From Cumulibacter manganitolerans (GTDB lineage Bacteria > Actinomycetota > Actinomycetes > Mycobacteriales > Antricoccaceae), in NCBI RefSeq assembly GCF_009602465.1, contig NZ_WBKP01000001.1:22060-86059 (forward strand): a DNA stretch of 64,000 nucleotides, written 5' to 3'. Each line of letters opens with the position of its first letter. Position 1 is the stretch's first letter. Positions 25,880-33,012 of the stretch are shown one piece after another. The translations under genes were made by a program, and so were the position numbers. A model generated the notes under the pieces. The model did no database searches. It saw nothing but the letters and a program-made list of their open reading frames with translations, and was not told the DNA's origin.

Positions 25880-26695
25880 TCACGCGGCGTCCCCCGTGAT
25901 GGCGGTGCGCAGCTCCGAGAGGATCCGTGTCAGCACCCGCGAGACCTGCATCTGGGTCACGCCGAGACGCTCGCCGATCTCCTTCTGCGTCAGGTCCTCG
26001 AAGAACCGCAGATAGAGGATCTCCTTATCGCGCGGTCCGAGCCGACGTACCGCCGGGGCCAGCATGAGCCGTGCCTCGCTCTCGCGTCCGGGCCCGTCGT
26101 CCGCTCGCACGTACTGCCCGACGAGGGTCGGTCCTTGGCCTGCGGGCTGGTCCAGTGACGCCGGTGCGTAGCAGCTGCGGGCCAGGTCCGTCTCGTCGAG
26201 ATCCTGCTGCGAGGCGCCTGTCTCCGCGCATAGCTCGGCGCGGGTCGGTGGGCGGCCGAGCTCGTGAGCGAGCCGCTCGAGGGCCCGCGTCATCTCCGAC
26301 TGCAGCTCCTGCACGCGGCGCGGAGGCCGGATCGTCCACCCTTGGTCGCGGAAGTACCGGCGTACCTCGCCCCGCATGGTCGGGACGGCGTACGAGACCA
26401 GATCCCGATCCTTGGTGACGTCGAAGCGCAGGACTGCGTGCAGCAGCCCTTCGTAGGCCACCTGGCGCAGGTCGTCCAGCGGTACGCCGCGGTTGCGGTA
26501 CCGGTTCGCGACGTCGTTCGCCACGTTGATGTTGATCATCACCACCTGCCGCCGCAGCCTGCTGCGGAACGGCTCACGGGCGCTCGCAGCGCGGATCAGC
26601 AAGCGCTTGGTCTCGGCTGCGCGCTCCTCGCGAGGAGCTGATTCGGACTGGATGGGCAGTCCCGGTCTGGGCACATCGGTCTTCACTGATTCCAC
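25880..26695 (-). CDS. RNA polymerase sigma factor, SigB/SigF/SigG type
   Basis: A 271-aa sigma-70 family protein of the stress group. Region 2 is seen in DLRQVAYEGLLHAVLRFD and VSYAVPTMRGEVRRYFRD with WTIRPPRRVQEL, region 3 around LERLAHELGRPPTRAEL, and region 4 with the helix-turn-helix LTQKEIGERLGVTQMQVSRVL. No anti-sigma or anti-anti-sigma gene flanks it, so it is an orphan in this window. The GTG start at 26695 is the most likely but its ribosome site is weak. It is divergent from the DUF6328-dehydrogenase unit, whose upstream region carries a matching SigF-like promoter. Confidence 0.93.
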   Translation of the reverse strand: MESVKTDVPRPGLPIQSESAPREERAAETKRLLIRAASAREPFRSRLRRQVVMININVANDVANRYRNRGVPLDDLRQVAYEGLLHAVLRFDVTKDRDLVSYAVPTMRGEVRRYFRDQGWTIRPPRRVQELQSEMTRALERLAHELGRPPTRAELCAETGASQQDLDETDLARSCYAPASLDQPAGQGPTLVGQYVRADDGPGRESEARLMLAPAVRRLGPRDKEILYLRFFEDLTQKEIGERLGVTQMQVSRVLTRILSELRTAITGDAA

Positions 26696-26815: not shown

Positions 26816-26840
26816 GTTTGGGGCTGCGGTGAGTGGGTAC
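26816..26840 (+). promoter_or_regulatory. Candidate SigF/SigB-type promoter
   Basis: GTTT at 26816-26819, then 15 bases, then GGGTAC at 26835-26840, close to the GTTT-N14-16-GGGTA pattern of actinobacterial stress sigma factors. It points toward the DUF6328 gene and lies 120 bp outside the start of the divergent sigma gene. The leader to the first start codon would be about 180 nt. The rest of the 331-bp gap holds no gene apart from a leader hairpin. Confidence 0.55.
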
Positions 26841-26977
26841 CGAAGACAGCGACGAGGAGTGGGCGGCGCCGAGCAAGCGCTCCTCGGCTCCGGTCCGGGT
26901 GCCGGTCGGTGCTGAACCGGGACGGTACCTTCCTGAGGCGGCGGGGTTGTAGAAGACTACGACCCTGTCGCTTCTTA

Positions 26978-27006
26978 TGCGTCGCGGCTGAGCTCTCCGC
27001 GACGCA
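26978..27006 (+). other. Leader hairpin before the DUF6328 gene
   Basis: Perfect 10-bp stem TGCGTCGCGG / CCGCGACGCA with a 9-base loop, ending 10 bases before the TGGAG ribosome site of the gene at 27027. Position suggests a role in translation start or mRNA stability, but this is inference. It is not an obvious terminator because a gene follows at once. Confidence 0.5.
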
Positions 27007-27026
27007 GCCGATGACTGGAGGCCGGG

Positions 27027-27563
27027 ATGGAGGAGTCGGACGTCGCTGACGACGGACGCCAGGAAACCGCGACCGAGCGCGCTGACCGCAACTGGGACGA
27101 GCTGCTGCAGGAGTTCCGCGTGCTGCAGACCGGGCTGCAGGTCCTGGGCGGCCTGCTGCTGACCCTGCCCTTCCAGTCGCGCTTCCAGCATCTCGACGGC
27201 GTCCAGCTGACCTTCTATCTGTTCCTCGTCGTGCTGGCGACCGTCAACGTCACCCTGATCCTGGTGCCCATCGCGATTCATCGGCGGTTGTTCCGTCAGC
27301 GGCGCAAGCCGCAGCTGGTGGCACTCGGCCAGCGGATCGCCCGGCTGTCCATCGCGGGCATCGCCGTCCTGGTCGCCGGTGTCGCGTCCTTCGTCTTCGA
27401 CGTCGTGCTGGGGCGGACTGCCGGGATCGTCGCTCTCGTGGCGCTCGCGGCGGTGGTGAGCGGGCTCATCGGGGCGGTGCCGTACGGCGCGGCACGATTC
27501 TGGGGCGAGAGCGGCTCTGACGAACAGCGCGACGAGCAGGTTGAGGGGATGAGGGAGCGATGA
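27027..27563 (+). CDS. DUF6328 family membrane protein
   Basis: A 178-aa protein with four membrane helices in residues about 38-160, preceded by an acidic N-terminus. The RNWDELLQEFRVLQTGLQVL segment and LLTLPFQSRF are typical of DUF6328, a family of unknown function in actinobacteria. The ATG at 27027 has TGGAG upstream. The stop overlaps the start of the dehydrogenase gene by four bases (ATGA), so this membrane protein is translationally coupled to the pterin-like cluster. It may be the membrane partner of that cluster or an older stress gene; the sequence does not say. Confidence 0.85.
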   Translation: MEESDVADDGRQETATERADRNWDELLQEFRVLQTGLQVLGGLLLTLPFQSRFQHLDGVQLTFYLFLVVLATVNVTLILVPIAIHRRLFRQRRKPQLVALGQRIARLSIAGIAVLVAGVASFVFDVVLGRTAGIVALVALAAVVSGLIGAVPYGAARFWGESGSDEQRDEQVEGMRER

Positions 27564-28525
27564 CGACCGCGAACGCCTACTGGAACACCGGCCCCCGCCG
27601 CGGGGAGGTGCGTGAGGAGCGGCTGCCCGATCCCGGCCCGGGCCAGGCGCTCGTGCGCACGCTGCACTCCGGGATCAGCCGGGGCACCGAGTCGATCGTC
27701 CATGCCGCCCGTGTGCCTGAGGCGGTGCGGATCTCGCTGCGCGCGCCGCACCAGTCCGGCGACTGGCCCGGCCCGGTGAAGTTCGGCTACCTCAACGTCG
27801 GCGTCGTCGAGGCGGGGCCGCCGGAGCTCGTCGGCGAGCGGGTGTTCTGCCTGTTCCCGCACCAGGACCGGTACGTCATCGACGCCGCGGACCTCGTCGT
27901 GCTGCCGCCGGAGCTGCCCTCGCATCGCGCCGTGCTGGCCGGGACGATGGAGACCGCGGTGAACGCCGTCTGGGACGCCCGACCGGCGTACGGCGATCGG
28001 ATCGCGGTGATCGGCGCCGGCATGGTGGGCGCGATGGTGGCCGGCCTGCTGCGGCAGTTCCCCTTGGCCCGGCTGGAGCTCGTCGACGTCAACCCCGACA
28101 GGGCGGCTCTCGCCGAGGCTCTCGGCGTCCGGCTGGTCGAACCCGGGGACGCGTCGCCGGAGTGCGACATCGTCGTGCACTGCTCGGCCACGGCAGCGGG
28201 GCTGGCGACCGGCCTGCGGTTGCTGGCGAACGAGGGCGAGCTGATCGAGATGTCCTGGTACGGCGACAACGCTCCGGAGGTACCGCTGGGCGAGACCTTC
28301 CACAGCCGCAGGCTCAGCATTCGGGCCAGCCAGGTCGGACAGATCTCACCGACCCGGCGAGGACGGCGCTCCTACCGCGACCGGCTGGAGCTGTCCATGG
28401 AGGCGTTGTGCGACGACCGCTACGAGCACTTCGTCTCCGGTCGGAGCGCGTTCGCCGATATCGTCGCAACGATGGACCGCGTCTGCACGGGGTCCACGGA
28501 GATCTGCCACGTTGTGGACTACTGA
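27560..28525 (+). CDS. Medium-chain dehydrogenase, BchC-like
   Basis: A 321-aa MDR-type oxidoreductase. The N-terminal catalytic fold has LHSGISRGTESIVH, similar to the SGISPGTE opening of the bacteriochlorophyllide dehydrogenase BchC group. The nucleotide-binding motif is IAVIGAGMVGAMVAG near residues 149-163, and the strand-2 acid is VDVN. Cysteine and histidine ligands for catalytic zinc are not obvious, so zinc dependence is uncertain. It overlaps DUF6328 by four bases and is followed 18 bp later by a pterin-synthase homologue. From memory, similar dehydrogenases sit beside PTPS homologues in Streptomyces clusters; the product is not known to me. Confidence 0.85.
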   Translation: MTTANAYWNTGPRRGEVREERLPDPGPGQALVRTLHSGISRGTESIVHAARVPEAVRISLRAPHQSGDWPGPVKFGYLNVGVVEAGPPELVGERVFCLFPHQDRYVIDAADLVVLPPELPSHRAVLAGTMETAVNAVWDARPAYGDRIAVIGAGMVGAMVAGLLRQFPLARLELVDVNPDRAALAEALGVRLVEPGDASPECDIVVHCSATAAGLATGLRLLANEGELIEMSWYGDNAPEVPLGETFHSRRLSIRASQVGQISPTRRGRRSYRDRLELSMEALCDDRYEHFVSGRSAFADIVATMDRVCTGSTEICHVVDY

Positions 28526-28543
28526 GCGATCCGAGGAGGACGC

Positions 28544-28924
28544 ATGTTCAGCCTGACCGTACGCGGCCACATGATGGTGGCCCATTCCCTTCCGCGACCG
28601 GTCTTCGGACCGGCGCAGGGCCTGCACGGCGCGACCTATGTGGTGGAGGCGACCTTCCGTCGCGACGCGGTCGACGAGAACGGGATTGTGCTGGACATCG
28701 GCGCGGCCACCGACACGCTGCAGGAGATCCTCGGCGGGCTGAGGTACACCAACCTGGACGACAACCCTGCGACCGCGGGTCTGCTCACGACCACCGAGAA
28801 CCTCGCGAAATTCGTCGCCGACTCGCTCGCCGAGCAGATGGATATCCCTGACATATCGGAGATCGAGGTCGTCCTCCGCGAGCACCCTGACGCCTGGTGC
28901 AGCTATCGGAGGTCGCTGTCCTGA
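28544..28924 (+). CDS. 6-pyruvoyltetrahydropterin synthase/QueD homologue with altered active site
   Basis: A 126-aa T-fold protein of the PTPS/QueD family by length and pattern: AHSL near residue 13, LHGATYVVEATF, DIGAATDTLQEIL, TTTENLAKFV and a final REHPDAWCSY with the pterin-anchoring Glu113. Key catalytic residues differ from QueD. The HGH zinc motif is HGA (His28, Ala30), the nucleophilic cysteine position is Ala24, and the Asp-His pair is Arg67-Tyr68. It therefore probably does not do normal PTPS or QueD chemistry. GAGGAGG precedes ATG 28544. Its last 22 bases overlap the convergent RibA-RibD_C gene. Confidence 0.85.
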   Translation: MFSLTVRGHMMVAHSLPRPVFGPAQGLHGATYVVEATFRRDAVDENGIVLDIGAATDTLQEILGGLRYTNLDDNPATAGLLTTTENLAKFVADSLAEQMDIPDISEIEVVLREHPDAWCSYRRSLS

Positions 28925-30339
28925 CGACGCAGGGCTTCGGCGACGGTCTCCATGCCCAGCGTCGGCGGCGTCGCGCGGTGGCTGAGGTCGAAGCGCAGGC
29001 AGGTGTCGTTGTCGATGAGCAGCCGGTGCACCGGCGGCCGTAGCGCGTCCCGGACGAGATCCGTGCCCTGGAAGCGGATCCCAGGGACGCCGTCGCCGAG
29101 CAGCGTCGGGGCCACCGTGAGGAACAGGTAGTCGAGGACGTCCGCCTGCACGAACCGGGAGACCGTGCGACCGCCGCCCTCGACGAGTACCCGGTGGAGA
29201 CCACGGGCGGCGAGCTCGCGAAGAATCGCCTCGGGCTCGAAGGTGCCGTCGTGCGACTCCATCGGCACCACCTCCACGTGCGCGGCGGTGGACGGCGTCG
29301 GAGCGGCGGCAGCTGTGCGCGCGTCCACCAGCCACAGGGTGGGCGCCTGGTTGTCCTGCAGGACCTTCGAATGCGGCGGGATCCGCCGGTTCGGGTCGAT
29401 GAGCACCCGGACCGGATTCGGCCCCGGAACCGCCCGCACGGTGAGCTGGCAGTCGTCCGCGGCGACCGTGTTGACGCCGACGACCACCGCGTCCACCAGC
29501 GCCCGCAGCCGGTGTAGGTGCTCGCGGTCGGCGTCCGAGGTCAGCTCCGCACCGTCGCCGGTGCGCGAGGCGATGAAGCCGTCGGCGCTCTGTCCCATCT
29601 GCGCGATCACCAGCGGGCCGTCGTGGCGCACCAGCGGTCCGTAACGGTCCACCAGCATCCTCGACGTCGGGCCCACGGCGACGGCGGGCGTCTGCATCTG
29701 GAGGAGATCGGCCCAGCAGTCGTCCTGCGGCGGGGCGGCATGGCCCATGCGGTTGATCTTGGTGTCGATGTAGCGGGCGTTCTCAGGGCGGCTGGGGACC
29801 CACAAGGGATCCCGTCCGACCACCTTGATGCCGAGGTTGTGCAGCGCGAGGGCCTTGGCCGGGTTGTTGCTCAACAACGTGATCGTGTCGACGCCGAGAT
29901 CGCGCAGGATCCCGGCTGCGGCGTCGTACGAGCGCGCGTCGATCGAGTGACCCAGCTCGACGTTCGCATCCAGCGTGTCCAGCCCGTCGTCCTGCAGCTC
30001 GTAGGTGCGAAGCTTCTCCAGCAAGCCGATCCCGCGGCCCTCGTGGCCGCGCAGGTAGATCACCGCGCCTCGTCCCACCGCAGCGATCTGCGCGAGCGCC
30101 GCGTCCAGCTGCTCGCCGCAGTCGCAGCGGTAGGAGCCGAATCCGTCACCGGTCAGGCACTCCGAGTGCAGACGGACCGTGGGCGGTCCCGCGCCGTTGT
30201 CGTTGCCGAGATCGCCCATCGTCAAAGCGATGTGCTCTGTGCCGTCACCGTCGCGATACCCGAGCATCCGGAAAACACCGTGACGACAGGGGAGGCGCGT
30301 TGCGGCGACGCGGCTGACGGGGGCGATCGATGCGCTCAT
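28903..30339 (-). CDS. GTP cyclohydrolase II fused to RibD C-terminal reductase domain
   Basis: A 478-aa fusion. Residues about 10-205 are GTP cyclohydrolase II, with zinc cysteines in HSECLTGDGFGSYRCDCG (Cys61, Cys72, Cys74), GHEGRGIGLL and the active-site Tyr113 in RTYELQD. Residues about 241-470 are a RibD-type reductase (LVIAQMGQSADGFIAS, VGVNTVAADDCQLTVR, VEGGGRTVS). Together these would open GTP and reduce the ribosylaminopyrimidine. The deaminase half of RibD and RibB are absent. ATG 30339 lacks a strong ribosome site. It converges on the PTPS homologue. No FMN riboswitch was recognised upstream, so it may be separate from the riboflavin operon. Confidence 0.92.
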   Translation of the reverse strand: MSASIAPVSRVAATRLPCRHGVFRMLGYRDGDGTEHIALTMGDLGNDNGAGPPTVRLHSECLTGDGFGSYRCDCGEQLDAALAQIAAVGRGAVIYLRGHEGRGIGLLEKLRTYELQDDGLDTLDANVELGHSIDARSYDAAAGILRDLGVDTITLLSNNPAKALALHNLGIKVVGRDPLWVPSRPENARYIDTKINRMGHAAPPQDDCWADLLQMQTPAVAVGPTSRMLVDRYGPLVRHDGPLVIAQMGQSADGFIASRTGDGAELTSDADREHLHRLRALVDAVVVGVNTVAADDCQLTVRAVPGPNPVRVLIDPNRRIPPHSKVLQDNQAPTLWLVDARTAAAAPTPSTAAHVEVVPMESHDGTFEPEAILRELAARGLHRVLVEGGGRTVSRFVQADVLDYLFLTVAPTLLGDGVPGIRFQGTDLVRDALRPPVHRLLIDNDTCLRFDLSHRATPPTLGMETVAEALRRQDSDLR

Positions 30340-30547: not shown

Positions 30548-31033
30548 GTGCGCGAGGTTTCCAGCTATAACCCGATACCACCGAGATCAGCCATACGGCG
30601 CCGACGGCCCCTCGTGCTGCTTCTCGCGGCGGTCCTGGCCGGGGCGACCGGCTGCGCGAGCTCGCCCGACAGCAGCTCCAGCTGGCGTTCGGACGCCGGC
30701 CAGATCGCACACGACGTCGCCGGGCAGCTGGCGATCACCCGGGTGGCTATGCAGGCCCGCGAGCAGGACCGGTTGCCGACGGCGTACGCGACGATGACCA
30801 CCACGAACGCCCAGGACTCCGGCCTGTCGAGCATCGACGACTTCGCCGACCTGTACCCGCCGCCGGAGCTGTTCGACATGCATGACGAGATCGCGGCGCT
30901 GCTGCGGGAGGCGGGCGACCTGCTCGTGCGCAGCCGGATCGCGATGGCCGGGGACGGGGATCCCGCGACGCTGATCGAGCAGACCGCCGACCTGCAGAAG
31001 CAGCTGCTGGACGAGGAGCGCAAGCTGCAATGA
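30548..31033 (+). CDS. Small lipoprotein
   Basis: A 161-aa predicted lipoprotein. Arg-rich residues 13-20 and a hydrophobic stretch lead to the lipobox ATGC (Cys36), after which the chain is polar and helical with a C-terminal coiled-coil-like segment (LIEQTADLQKQLLDEERKLQ). No family recognised. It starts at GTG 30548 and its stop overlaps the NRAMP gene start by four bases (ATGA), so the two are translationally coupled and probably act together at the membrane. It is divergent from the RibA-RibD_C gene; the 208-bp region between them shows no riboswitch. Confidence 0.8.
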   Translation: MREVSSYNPIPPRSAIRRRRPLVLLLAAVLAGATGCASSPDSSSSWRSDAGQIAHDVAGQLAITRVAMQAREQDRLPTAYATMTTTNAQDSGLSSIDDFADLYPPPELFDMHDEIAALLREAGDLLVRSRIAMAGDGDPATLIEQTADLQKQLLDEERKLQ

Positions 31034-32265
31034 AGCTGAAGAAGCTCCTGAGTGTCGCGCTCGGCATCCTCACCGCGATCGGCGGGTTCGTCGACGCGGG
31101 AGACCTGGTGACGAACGCTGTCGTCGGATCCCGGTTCGGCATGTCGCTCACCTGGGCCGTCGTAATCGGTGTGCTGGGCATCTGCGTCTATTCGGAGATG
31201 TCCGGCCGCATTGCGGCGGTCAGCGGGCGGGCGACGTTCGACCTGGTGCGTGAGCGCCTCGGCCCGCGCGTCGGCCTGGCCAACCTGGTGGCGTCGATGG
31301 CCGTCACCTTTCTGACGCTGGTCGCCGAGATCGGTGGCCTGGCGCTGGCGCTGGAGCTGCTGAGCTCGGTGAGCTACCTGCTGATCGTCCCGTTCCTCGC
31401 ATTGCTGCTGTGGGTCGTGCTCTGGAGAGCGAAGTTCGCGGCGATGGAGAACGTCGTCGGCCTCGCCGGGCTGTCGCTGATCGTCTTCGCCGTCGCGGTC
31501 TGGCAGCTCGGTCCCAGCTGGTCGGCGTTCGGATTGGACGCGCTGCTCGCCCGCAAACCCGGCGAGGAGTCGTGGACGACGTACGCCTTCTACTTCGTGG
31601 CCTTGTTCGGCGCGGCCATGACGCCGTACGAGGTGTTCTTCTTCTCCTCCGGCGGCGTCGAGGAGCACTGGAAGCCCAGCAGCCTGGCCACGATGCGCGC
31701 GAACGTCTTCATCGGTTTCCCCCTCGGCGGCCTGCTCTCGTTGTCGATCGCCGGGGCGGCCACCCTGGTTCTGCTGCCGGCGCACGCGTCCGTGGAGAGC
31801 CTCGGCGCGGTCGGCCTGCCGGTGGCGATGGCGCTGGGCAAGGTCGGCGTCGCCATCATGCTGCTCGGGTTCGTGGCCGCGACGTTCGGAGCGGCCTGCG
31901 AGACGGGACTGTCGATCGGCTACAGCATCGCCCAGTATTTCGGCTTCCAGTGGGGCAAGCTGGTACGGCCGCGCGAGGCCGCGGCGTTCCACTCCATCGT
32001 CCTGGTCTCGATCGTGGCGGCGGTCGGCGTCCTGCTCACGACCGTCGACCCGATCATGGTCACCGAGATCTCGGTGGTGTTCTCCGCCGTCGCGCTCCCG
32101 CTGACCTACTTCCCGATCCTGGTGGTCGCCAACGACCGGAGGTATCTCGGCGACCACGTCAACGGAAGGCTGGCCAACGGTCTGGGCGTCGTCTACCTGA
32201 TCCTGCTGACGATCATCTCGCTGGCGGCCCTCCCACTGATGATCATCACCGGCATGGGGAAGTGA
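31030..32265 (+). CDS. NRAMP-family metal transporter, variant metal site
   Basis: A 411-aa membrane protein with about eleven helices and NRAMP layout. The helix-1 motif DPGN is DAGD (Asp22-Ala-Gly-Asp25) within GGFVDAGDLVTN. The helix-6 motif MPHN is TPYE (Thr198-Pro-Tyr-Glu201) within GAAMTPYEVFFFSSG. The Met that favours Mn2+ and Fe2+ in classic NRAMPs is thus replaced by Thr, so the ion may be harder, for example Mg2+; this is inference. It is coupled to the upstream lipoprotein and followed 6 bp later by a PRC-barrel protein. Confidence 0.85.
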   Translation: MKLKKLLSVALGILTAIGGFVDAGDLVTNAVVGSRFGMSLTWAVVIGVLGICVYSEMSGRIAAVSGRATFDLVRERLGPRVGLANLVASMAVTFLTLVAEIGGLALALELLSSVSYLLIVPFLALLLWVVLWRAKFAAMENVVGLAGLSLIVFAVAVWQLGPSWSAFGLDALLARKPGEESWTTYAFYFVALFGAAMTPYEVFFFSSGGVEEHWKPSSLATMRANVFIGFPLGGLLSLSIAGAATLVLLPAHASVESLGAVGLPVAMALGKVGVAIMLLGFVAATFGAACETGLSIGYSIAQYFGFQWGKLVRPREAAAFHSIVLVSIVAAVGVLLTTVDPIMVTEISVVFSAVALPLTYFPILVVANDRRYLGDHVNGRLANGLGVVYLILLTIISLAALPLMIITGMGK

Positions 32266-32271
32266 GCACCG

Positions 32272-33012
32272 ATGACTCGGACGAACCCTGACCGCCACGA
32301 GCTCGATGCCAACCTCGAGCTGCTGGATCGGCAGATCATCGACAGCGACGGGCTGTTCGCCGGGAAGGTCGACGACCTGGAGCTGACCGCCTCGGGTGAG
32401 CGCGAGCTGAGCCTGACCGGGATCCTGGTCGGCGCACCGGCGCTGCTGCCCCGGTTCGGCGGTCGCCGGACGGGTGAACGGTTGCTGCGCGGCTGGCACG
32501 GCCTCGTCCCCGTCCGCTCCGACCGCAACACGCCGGGCCGCATCGACATCCGCGCGGTTCGCGCCCTCGACAGCGCCGTCCACCTCGACCGGTCGCGGGA
32601 CGGCGTGGCGCAGGTGCAGCCGCAGGGAGAGCCGCACGTGCACAGCCTCAACCGGCTGTCGAACCTGCGGCTCACCGGCCCGCAGGCCCGCGAGAAGGAC
32701 CGGATCCTCGACGTCCGGCTCGCCTACAGCGGCTCGACGCTGTCCTCGGCGTATGTCACCGGGCTGATCGTGGGACCGGCCGGACGACCCGGCTCGATGC
32801 TGGGGTACGAGCGACGCGCGGAGCAGGGGCCGGCGCTGCTGGCCGCGGTCGTGGGCCGGATCCATCGGCACGCCCGCTACCTGCAGCTCAGCGAGGCGGT
32901 CCACATCGACTGGGCGGGCGGCCGGATCGACGTCGGCGCGGGGGCCGACTACGGCGAGCTGCGCCCACCGAAGGCCCCGAGACACGTCCGCGAGCCGCGC
33001 CGCGGCGCGTAG
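32272..33012 (+). CDS. PRC-barrel-like protein
   Basis: A 246-aa protein with two PRC-barrel-like segments: ELLDRQIIDSDGLFAGKVDD near residue 17 and a second near residue 200 (LQLSEAVHIDWAGGRIDVG). No membrane segment is seen. PRC-barrels often sit beside ion transporters and sense or tether. In other actinobacteria PRC or MgtE-N-like proteins accompany NRAMP genes, as I recall. It follows the NRAMP gene by 6 bp and completes a three-gene operon with the lipoprotein. ATG 32272. Confidence 0.75.
   Translation: MTRTNPDRHELDANLELLDRQIIDSDGLFAGKVDDLELTASGERELSLTGILVGAPALLPRFGGRRTGERLLRGWHGLVPVRSDRNTPGRIDIRAVRALDSAVHLDRSRDGVAQVQPQGEPHVHSLNRLSNLRLTGPQAREKDRILDVRLAYSGSTLSSAYVTGLIVGPAGRPGSMLGYERRAEQGPALLAAVVGRIHRHARYLQLSEAVHIDWAGGRIDVGAGADYGELRPPKAPRHVREPRRGA

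Follow-up and report, generated by a model that had tools for sequence, protein, structure and literature searches.

The 64,000-nucleotide stretch of the Cumulibacter manganitolerans genome analysed here (contig NZ_WBKP01000001.1, positions 22,060 to 86,059; hereafter the window) contains adjoining genes for a BchC-like dehydrogenase, a homologue of 6-pyruvoyl tetrahydropterin synthase (PTPS) and a GTP cyclohydrolase II (GCH II) fused to a RibD_C domain. In our judgement, it is fairly likely that these three genes are what the window contributes to a pathway from GTP, of the PTPS-IV/SCO6650 type, that is conserved in actinobacteria (Table 1). An earlier note on this sequence had described the DUF6328, dehydrogenase and PTPS genes as a tight unit on which the fusion gene converges, and the open reading frames agreed with that description. 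The 3' end of the DUF6328 gene shares 4 bp with the 5' end of the dehydrogenase gene, 18 bp separate the dehydrogenase gene from that of the PTPS homologue, and the fusion, a single frame of 478 codons read from position 30339, overlaps the PTPS homologue tail to tail by 22 bp. All frames of the trio in the window were open and carried conserved residues.

Table 1. Features of the locus, in window coordinates.
Feature	Position	Strand	Evidence or remark
BchC-like MDR dehydrogenase, 321 aa	27560..28525	+	GxGxxG nucleotide site; weak ADH_zinc_N match
PTPS-IV homologue, 126 aa	28544..28924	+	Pfam PTPS E 3.9e-24; FGPAQ at residues 21-25
GCH II-RibD_C fusion, 478 aa	28903..30339	-	GTP_cyclohydro2 E 2.2e-59 and RibD_C E 3.9e-38 in one frame
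DUF6328 membrane protein	27027..27563	+	Pfam E 2.4e-47
SigB/SigF-type promoter-like site, GTTT-N15-GGGTA	26816..26839	+	DUF6328 start codon lies about 190 nt downstream
SigB/SigF/SigG-family sigma factor gene	25880..26695	-	Divergent from the unit; TIGR02980 212 bits, cut-off 234

Among solved structures, the PTPS homologue was closest to SCO6650 (PDB 3d7j, E 2.6e-34). When it was aligned with the 6-pyruvoyl tetrahydropterin synthase 1b66, Ala24 occupied the column that we take to be that of the catalytic Cys, residues 28–30 read HGA instead of HGH, and residues 67–68 read RY in place of the D-H diad. The window protein therefore lacks the catalytic Cys, the complete set of HGH zinc ligands and the D-H diad of canonical PTPS and QueD enzymes, which is the rebuilt active site that had been proposed for it. 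Glu113 was retained, and both Glu113 and His28 were invariant across the 187 loci described below, in 184–187 of which each position of FGPAQ was also conserved. This motif is the published signature of PTPS-IV (COG0720) according to the accessible part of PMC5445326, and the window has the PF00925 and PF01872 neighbourhood of that subfamily as well, both domains lying within the convergent fusion.

A more distant set of 21 PTPS loci from other classes (L014–L034, the best-scoring of the distant matches) was inspected over 1.5 kb around the PTPS gene. Eighteen combined FGPA with an intact HGH, which suggests that the catalytic Cys may have been lost before the third zinc His; within this distance the same 18 had the dehydrogenase in every case, a GT4 glycosyltransferase in 15 and RibD_C in 10. 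L026 and L032 were QueD-like with a Cys motif, and neither the dehydrogenase nor GT4 was matched in their 1.5 kb; L024 was a contig-end fragment. The set was dropped as a QueD control because 18 of its 21 members had the dehydrogenase and 16 had GT4. Many of these loci were ordered RibD_C-dehydrogenase-PTPS-GT4, a possible evolutionary intermediate.

In the fusion, GCH II occupies approximately residues 8–207 and RibD_C approximately residues 242–425. The zinc cysteines are Cys61, Cys72 and Cys74, and equivalents of what we take to be the E. coli GCH II reference positions (C54, C65, C67, R49, D126 and R128) were all present, as expected of a GCH II; the T149 position was Ser, as in 74 of 81 aligned rows. 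The position equivalent to E. coli GCH II Tyr105, hereafter the switch residue, was Tyr113 (codon 30003–30001). The closest solved relative of the RibD_C part was a 2,5-diamino-6-ribosylamino-pyrimidinone phosphate reductase (6p8c, E 4.5e-24), and no deaminase domain was found by Pfam search in the fusion or the three-gene unit. The dehydrogenase matched the BchC model TIGR01202 (E 6.9e-11) at 41.8 bits, so far below the equivalog cut-off of 291.25 that 'BchC-like' denotes a distant relative only. The region that usually holds the catalytic zinc Cys reads SGISRGTE, and the enzyme is apparently Zn-less, as judged by eye against what we presume to be the usual alcohol dehydrogenase motifs.

Gene neighbourhoods were compared at 187 loci, made up of 80 named loci (the best 80 of at least 539 relatives, leaning to Arthrobacter), 8 from a phylum sample, 60 from an order sample (61 of the 94 hits beyond the window genome were taken as regions and 33 left out), 35 from a class sample (35 new places, with G739 left out), 3 fusion loci and the window. 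Four were duplicates by PTPS DNA, leaving 183 distinct loci; removing them shifted counts by at most 4 and changed no ratio in kind. Motif conservation, tree rows and the tally of the first 149 loci given below and above refer to the rows before this removal. Partner genes were sought by tblastn with references from four loci (a single Streptomyces protein at E 1e-6 for creatininase), their Pfam names come from single loci, and absences are uncertain at loci that end at contig ends. Within 6.5 kb of PTPS, the 183 distinct loci had the dehydrogenase in 181, GT4 in 179, LPG_synthase_TM in 132, CDP-alcohol transferase in 119, methyltransferase in 114, GCH II in 110, RibD_C in 89, creatininase in 51 and DUF6328 in 3, the window included. 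Beyond 6.5 kb every partner was found at 0–4 loci (dehydrogenase 0, GT4 3, GCH II 0 and RibD_C 0), which serves as a chance control. The neighbourhood of PTPS is conserved across these loci, and a chance neighbourhood, which the earlier note had named as an argument against a system, was rejected.

Of 396 phylum genomes, 9, counting that of the window, had a PTPS match below E 1e-29, and 100 had one at E 1e-3. With aligned matches up to E 1e-20 taken as the marker, it was present in 95 of the 298 genomes sampled from the order and in 47 of the 345 from the class. No PTPS match was found in the four sampled relatives of the same genus or family (G397, G423, G411 and G432), so that the trio occurs patchily among close relatives. 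In a FastTree tree of dehydrogenase plus PTPS, the window fell in a starred set of 45 rows with Micrococcaceae rows, L070, L217 and L218; 41 of the 45 had no GCH II, RibD_C or creatininase within the stretch examined. A weak sulfatase-domain match (L079:6097-7977), with tblastn relatives near the cluster in many loci, may mark a further partner.

RibD_C-fused GCH II occurred at 7 of the 187 loci, all distinct, and a fusion-length match in 5 of 345 class genomes. The dehydrogenase and PTPS genes adjoin the fusion in the window genome, G904 and G858, and in G719 it is adjoined by the dehydrogenase and a divergent PTPS (33%, E 6e-9). When 31 genomes (29 of named loci, G008 and G925) were searched with the fusion, GCH II was matched at E 1e-50 in 28 of them, and over the length of the fusion only in L070's genome and G925. 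On a RibA tree the fusions lay in two branches, one with the window, L070, L217 and L218, in which the window and Tersicoccus L070 form a starred pair, and one with L112, L120 and L219, placed near the window genome's own RibBA; the tree was built by a quick method and has several long branches, so that placements are unsure. Cluster GCH IIs were spread over several of its branches, including a 46-row Tyr branch and a 30-row Met/His branch, and by this topology cluster GCH II is judged to be an enzyme recruited repeatedly, from separate RibA branches. The GCH II part of the L112 fusion (L112:13953-15500) looks degenerate at several conserved positions and its RibD_C looks intact; L207 is a partial match.

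The switch residue divided the loci into two types. SCO6655 is said to halt at the formylated intermediate, with Met120 in place of Tyr reportedly the cause. The switch residue and CREATININASE were first compared over 149 loci. At the 81 with GCH II, the switch was Tyr in 49, Met in 15, His in 15, Ser in 1 and a gap in 1, and a creatininase-family gene was present at 30 of 30 Met/His loci and at none of the Tyr loci. Among loci gathered after the prediction had been stated, creatininase occurred at 21 of 21 non-Tyr loci (Met 14, His 3, Leu 3, Gln 1) and at 0 of 7 Tyr loci, from which three further Tyr loci were left out as fusion loci already known. Over the 110 distinct GCH II loci, creatininase was found at 0 of 57 Tyr loci, 51 of 51 Met/His/Leu/Gln loci, 0 of 1 Ser locus (L112) and 0 of 1 unaligned locus. 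All eight unlinked GCH II loci examined had Tyr at the switch, and the Streptomyces creatininase query had no match anywhere in the window. RibD_C adjoins GCH II in 56 of the 57 Tyr loci; of the 51 non-Tyr loci, 10 had it within 7 kb, and in none did it adjoin GCH II. The creatininase-family protein BrbF deformylates the formylated GCH II intermediate, according to the accessible part of PMC9478397. On a simple reading, a non-deformylating GCH II would be paired with a deformylase, and the Tyr type, the window's included, would need none; given the BrbF activity, the two routes probably reach one diaminopyrimidine.

The earlier note had stated that riboflavin genes are absent, which was correct for the interval 26816–30339 and incorrect for the genome. 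A RibA-domain frame of RibBA length and a RibD-domain frame stand together on another contig (C70), beside riboflavin synthase-like and RibH-like frames identified by eye. With a separate rib operon, the fusion is not the genome's only ribA, and the reading of it as sole ribA, on which the proposal might have fallen, was rejected. Nor does the fusion have the two marks looked for in an enzyme of the riboflavin set, a deaminase with its reductase and the position of sole GCH II of the genome.

GT4, methyltransferase and LPG_synthase_TM had no match in the window. A GT4 gene on contig C23 matched the GT4 of a Micromonospora cluster at 45% (E 8e-44; next best 3e-18) and, in a tree of 21 of 176 cluster GT4s plus 4 of the genome's own, fell in a starred set of 8 rows with Micrococcaceae and fusion-bearing clusters. 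The description as a shortened version of a larger gene set is correct for the locus, but the genome has a cluster-clade GT4 on C23, and short loci are the rule in the clade to which the window belongs (41 of 45). The orphan GT4 (L227:9470-11926, G000 contig C23) adjoins a polysaccharide-deacetylase-like gene, a 61% homologue of which sits next upstream of DUF6328 in G411, hinting that the C23 GT4 and the trio were once neighbours.

Building on the observed gene content, conserved linkage, fusion and conserved catalytic residues, a route can be proposed whose first two steps we infer from those residues and from established enzyme families. The Tyr-type GCH II domain would convert GTP to 2,5-diamino-6-ribosylamino-4(3H)-pyrimidinone 5'-phosphate, with formate released by GCH II itself, and the fused RibD_C would reduce the ribosyl to a ribityl group. 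As the unit has no deaminase domain, the 2-amino group would be kept and the route would depart from riboflavin here. What follows, steps 3 and 4 together with the final product, is conjecture based on gene content. In step 3, the apparently Zn-less dehydrogenase might oxidise a side-chain hydroxyl (C2'), and PTPS-IV, which has neither catalytic Cys nor D-H diad and is one zinc ligand short, might help a reduced pterin ring to close via the C2' ketone, the 2-amino-4-oxo ring being held by Glu113; in step 4, the GT4 glycosyltransferase encoded on C23 might attach a sugar. The product is probably pterin-like or a pyrimidine derived from GTP, in line with the GTP-derived small-molecule cluster first suggested, which the GCH II residues, the 6p8c relative and the conserved linkage make probable. 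In its widest form the proposal is tentative and rather doubtful: actinobacteria would have a second, GCH I-independent pterin route, via GCH II (or a non-deformylating GCH II together with a deformylase of the creatininase family), a RibD_C reductase and the Zn-less BchC-like dehydrogenase, in which a ribityl diaminopyrimidine with an oxidised side chain closes on its 5-amino group aided by PTPS-IV, to give a pterin cofactor or pigment that is glycosylated and, in the larger clusters, also methylated and perhaps handled at the membrane.

Several observations weigh against a shared pathway of this kind and against the switch/creatininase pairing within it. The pairing is a strict association of few evolutionary events, as the RibA tree has 2 switch changes and 1 creatininase change, and the core tree (109 rows with both traits) has 3 of each. 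Starred independent pairs number 1–2, without significance; one is concordant, and the second, present only if L112 and long rows are kept, shows no creatininase difference, so that we claim the association and not a number of independent events. At 41 of the 51 creatininase loci with GCH II, no RibD_C lies within 7 kb, which leaves step 2 unlinked there; six genomes taken as Streptomyces had at least 11–15 RibD_C matches each, so a distant reductase could serve. GCH II itself was absent nearby in 73 of the 183 distinct loci, and most Arthrobacter-type loci carry only dehydrogenase-PTPS-GT4, where GCH II must come from elsewhere. The fusion genome G925, outside the 47 class PTPS matches, had neither dehydrogenase nor PTPS in the stretches examined. 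In the window genome LPG_synthase_TM had no match in a search made without a positive control, and no convincing methyltransferase was found, the best match reaching only E 2e-4.

GCH II and RibD_C are riboflavin enzymes, and a sigma factor gene and promoter-like site lie close to the fusion, which would suit an extra riboflavin enzyme that raises flavin synthesis under stress, with PTPS adjacent by accident. The separate rib genes and the lack of a deaminase domain in the fusion make this unlikely; moreover, 4 of 5 class-sample fusions adjoin both dehydrogenase and PTPS, and the promoter-like site faces DUF6328, the fusion being on the opposite strand. A deazaflavin/F420-like or other ribityl cofactor is an improbable product too. 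The F0 precursor is made by way of a ribityl diaminopyrimidine, but the three-gene unit has no deaminase domain, and to our knowledge F420 synthesis does not involve genes like the GT4, methyltransferase and membrane partners. PTPS-IV has also been tied to archaeal F420, as unpublished work cited in the accessible part of PMC5041015.

The PTPS domain match in Pfam and a weak QueD match (36.5 bits) would allow a QueD-type enzyme of preQ0/7-deazapurine synthesis. This reading is disfavoured and very improbable, because the score is under the cut-off of 89, the active site has Ala at the catalytic Cys, HGA for HGH and RY for DH, and the distant Cys-motif loci L026 and L032 had no dehydrogenase or GT4 within 1.5 kb, in contrast to the FGPA-HGH loci, 18 of 18 of which had the dehydrogenase. 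There is likewise only a small chance that the trio is the decaying remnant of a larger Streptomyces-type cluster whose product is no longer made: the failure to find LPG_synthase_TM or a convincing methyltransferase in the genome and the unlinked GT4 would fit decay, but the frames are open with conserved residues, and 41 of 45 members of the window's clade likewise have no GCH II, RibD_C or creatininase nearby.

The pathway that we favour belongs to a cluster type already known, of which the window is a compact variant with the first two enzymes fused and a likely partner gene elsewhere. The suspected relation to Streptomyces gene sets was borne out. As in the SCO6650-type set of Streptomyces (which we take to span SCO6650–SCO6655 in S. 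coelicolor), the PTPS orthologue adjoins a BchC-like dehydrogenase, and SCO6650 (3d7j) is its best solved relative; in L107 and L108, where the dehydrogenase also adjoins PTPS, GCH II is in the cluster as well. In contrast to the window, L107, L108 and the genomes taken as Streptomyces have a Met-type GCH II and a creatininase-family gene and link GT4, methyltransferase, LPG_synthase_TM and CDP-alcohol transferase, whereas the window has a creatininase-free, Tyr-type GCH II fused to RibD_C and its GT4 on another contig. Toxoflavin-type clusters similarly use GCH II and RibD-type enzymes to divert a riboflavin precursor to another product, but we know of no PTPS-IV or such dehydrogenase in them. 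The PTPS-IV cluster-node 62 of the AGeNNT network shares FGPAQ and the PF00925 and PF01872 neighbours; PF00925 is labelled GTP cyclohydrolase I/FolE2, and the fusion, switch residue and creatininase link are not described, in the accessible part of PMC5445326. The BrbF/ArfB route parallels the non-Tyr clusters, at the level of Pfam families, in its creatininase-family protein acting on a formylated GCH II intermediate; the window differs in its Tyr-type GCH II with no such partner nearby, and BrbF serves riboflavin (PMC9478397, accessible part). Although the PTPS marker is widespread, neither a cluster product nor the switch/creatininase link was named in the literature searched (mostly by listing, with few subscription papers covered). 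With the switch/creatininase pairing, the way in which GCH II splits up its reaction could be tested simply, with two enzymes. The pairing may also be relevant to where the formylated intermediate of BrbF bacteria comes from, a point that the accessible part of PMC9478397 leaves open. For preparing the predicted ribityl intermediate, the fusion would have the convenience of being one protein.

DUF6328 had been counted as a component of the cluster, which the comparisons do not favour, its linkage to PTPS being rare (3 of 183). G411, of the same family and another genus, has DUF6328, ferritin-like, lipoprotein, Nramp and PRC genes without the trio, and in the window the trio stands between DUF6328 and the lipoprotein gene, so DUF6328, as judged from this one genome, is probably the older resident. 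It is probably a neighbour, possibly co-transcribed, and not part of the pathway. The block at 30548–33012 of the window (a lipoprotein-like gene, an Nramp-family transporter and a third gene) is also kept in G411.

Putative stress-sigma control of the unit, also suggested earlier, has one consensus match as its basis. The window has a single GTTT-N13-17-GGGTA site, the one at 26816, which follows what we take to be the SigB/SigF consensus; 20 first-order shuffles gave an expectation of 0.25. No such site was found upstream of the G411 DUF6328 gene. A sigma factor gene lay within about 10 kb of PTPS at 4 of 183 distinct loci, the window included. A looser GGGWA pattern occurred at 4 of 139 loci when the 700 nt before the dehydrogenase gene were scanned, about 1 being expected and the window's site lying outside that stretch, and no conserved promoter is claimed. 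At one locus, L073 of Sinomonas albida, dehydrogenase-PTPS-GT4 is preceded by a GTTT-N15-GGGTA site and has a SigF-like gene and DUF6328 on its upstream side.

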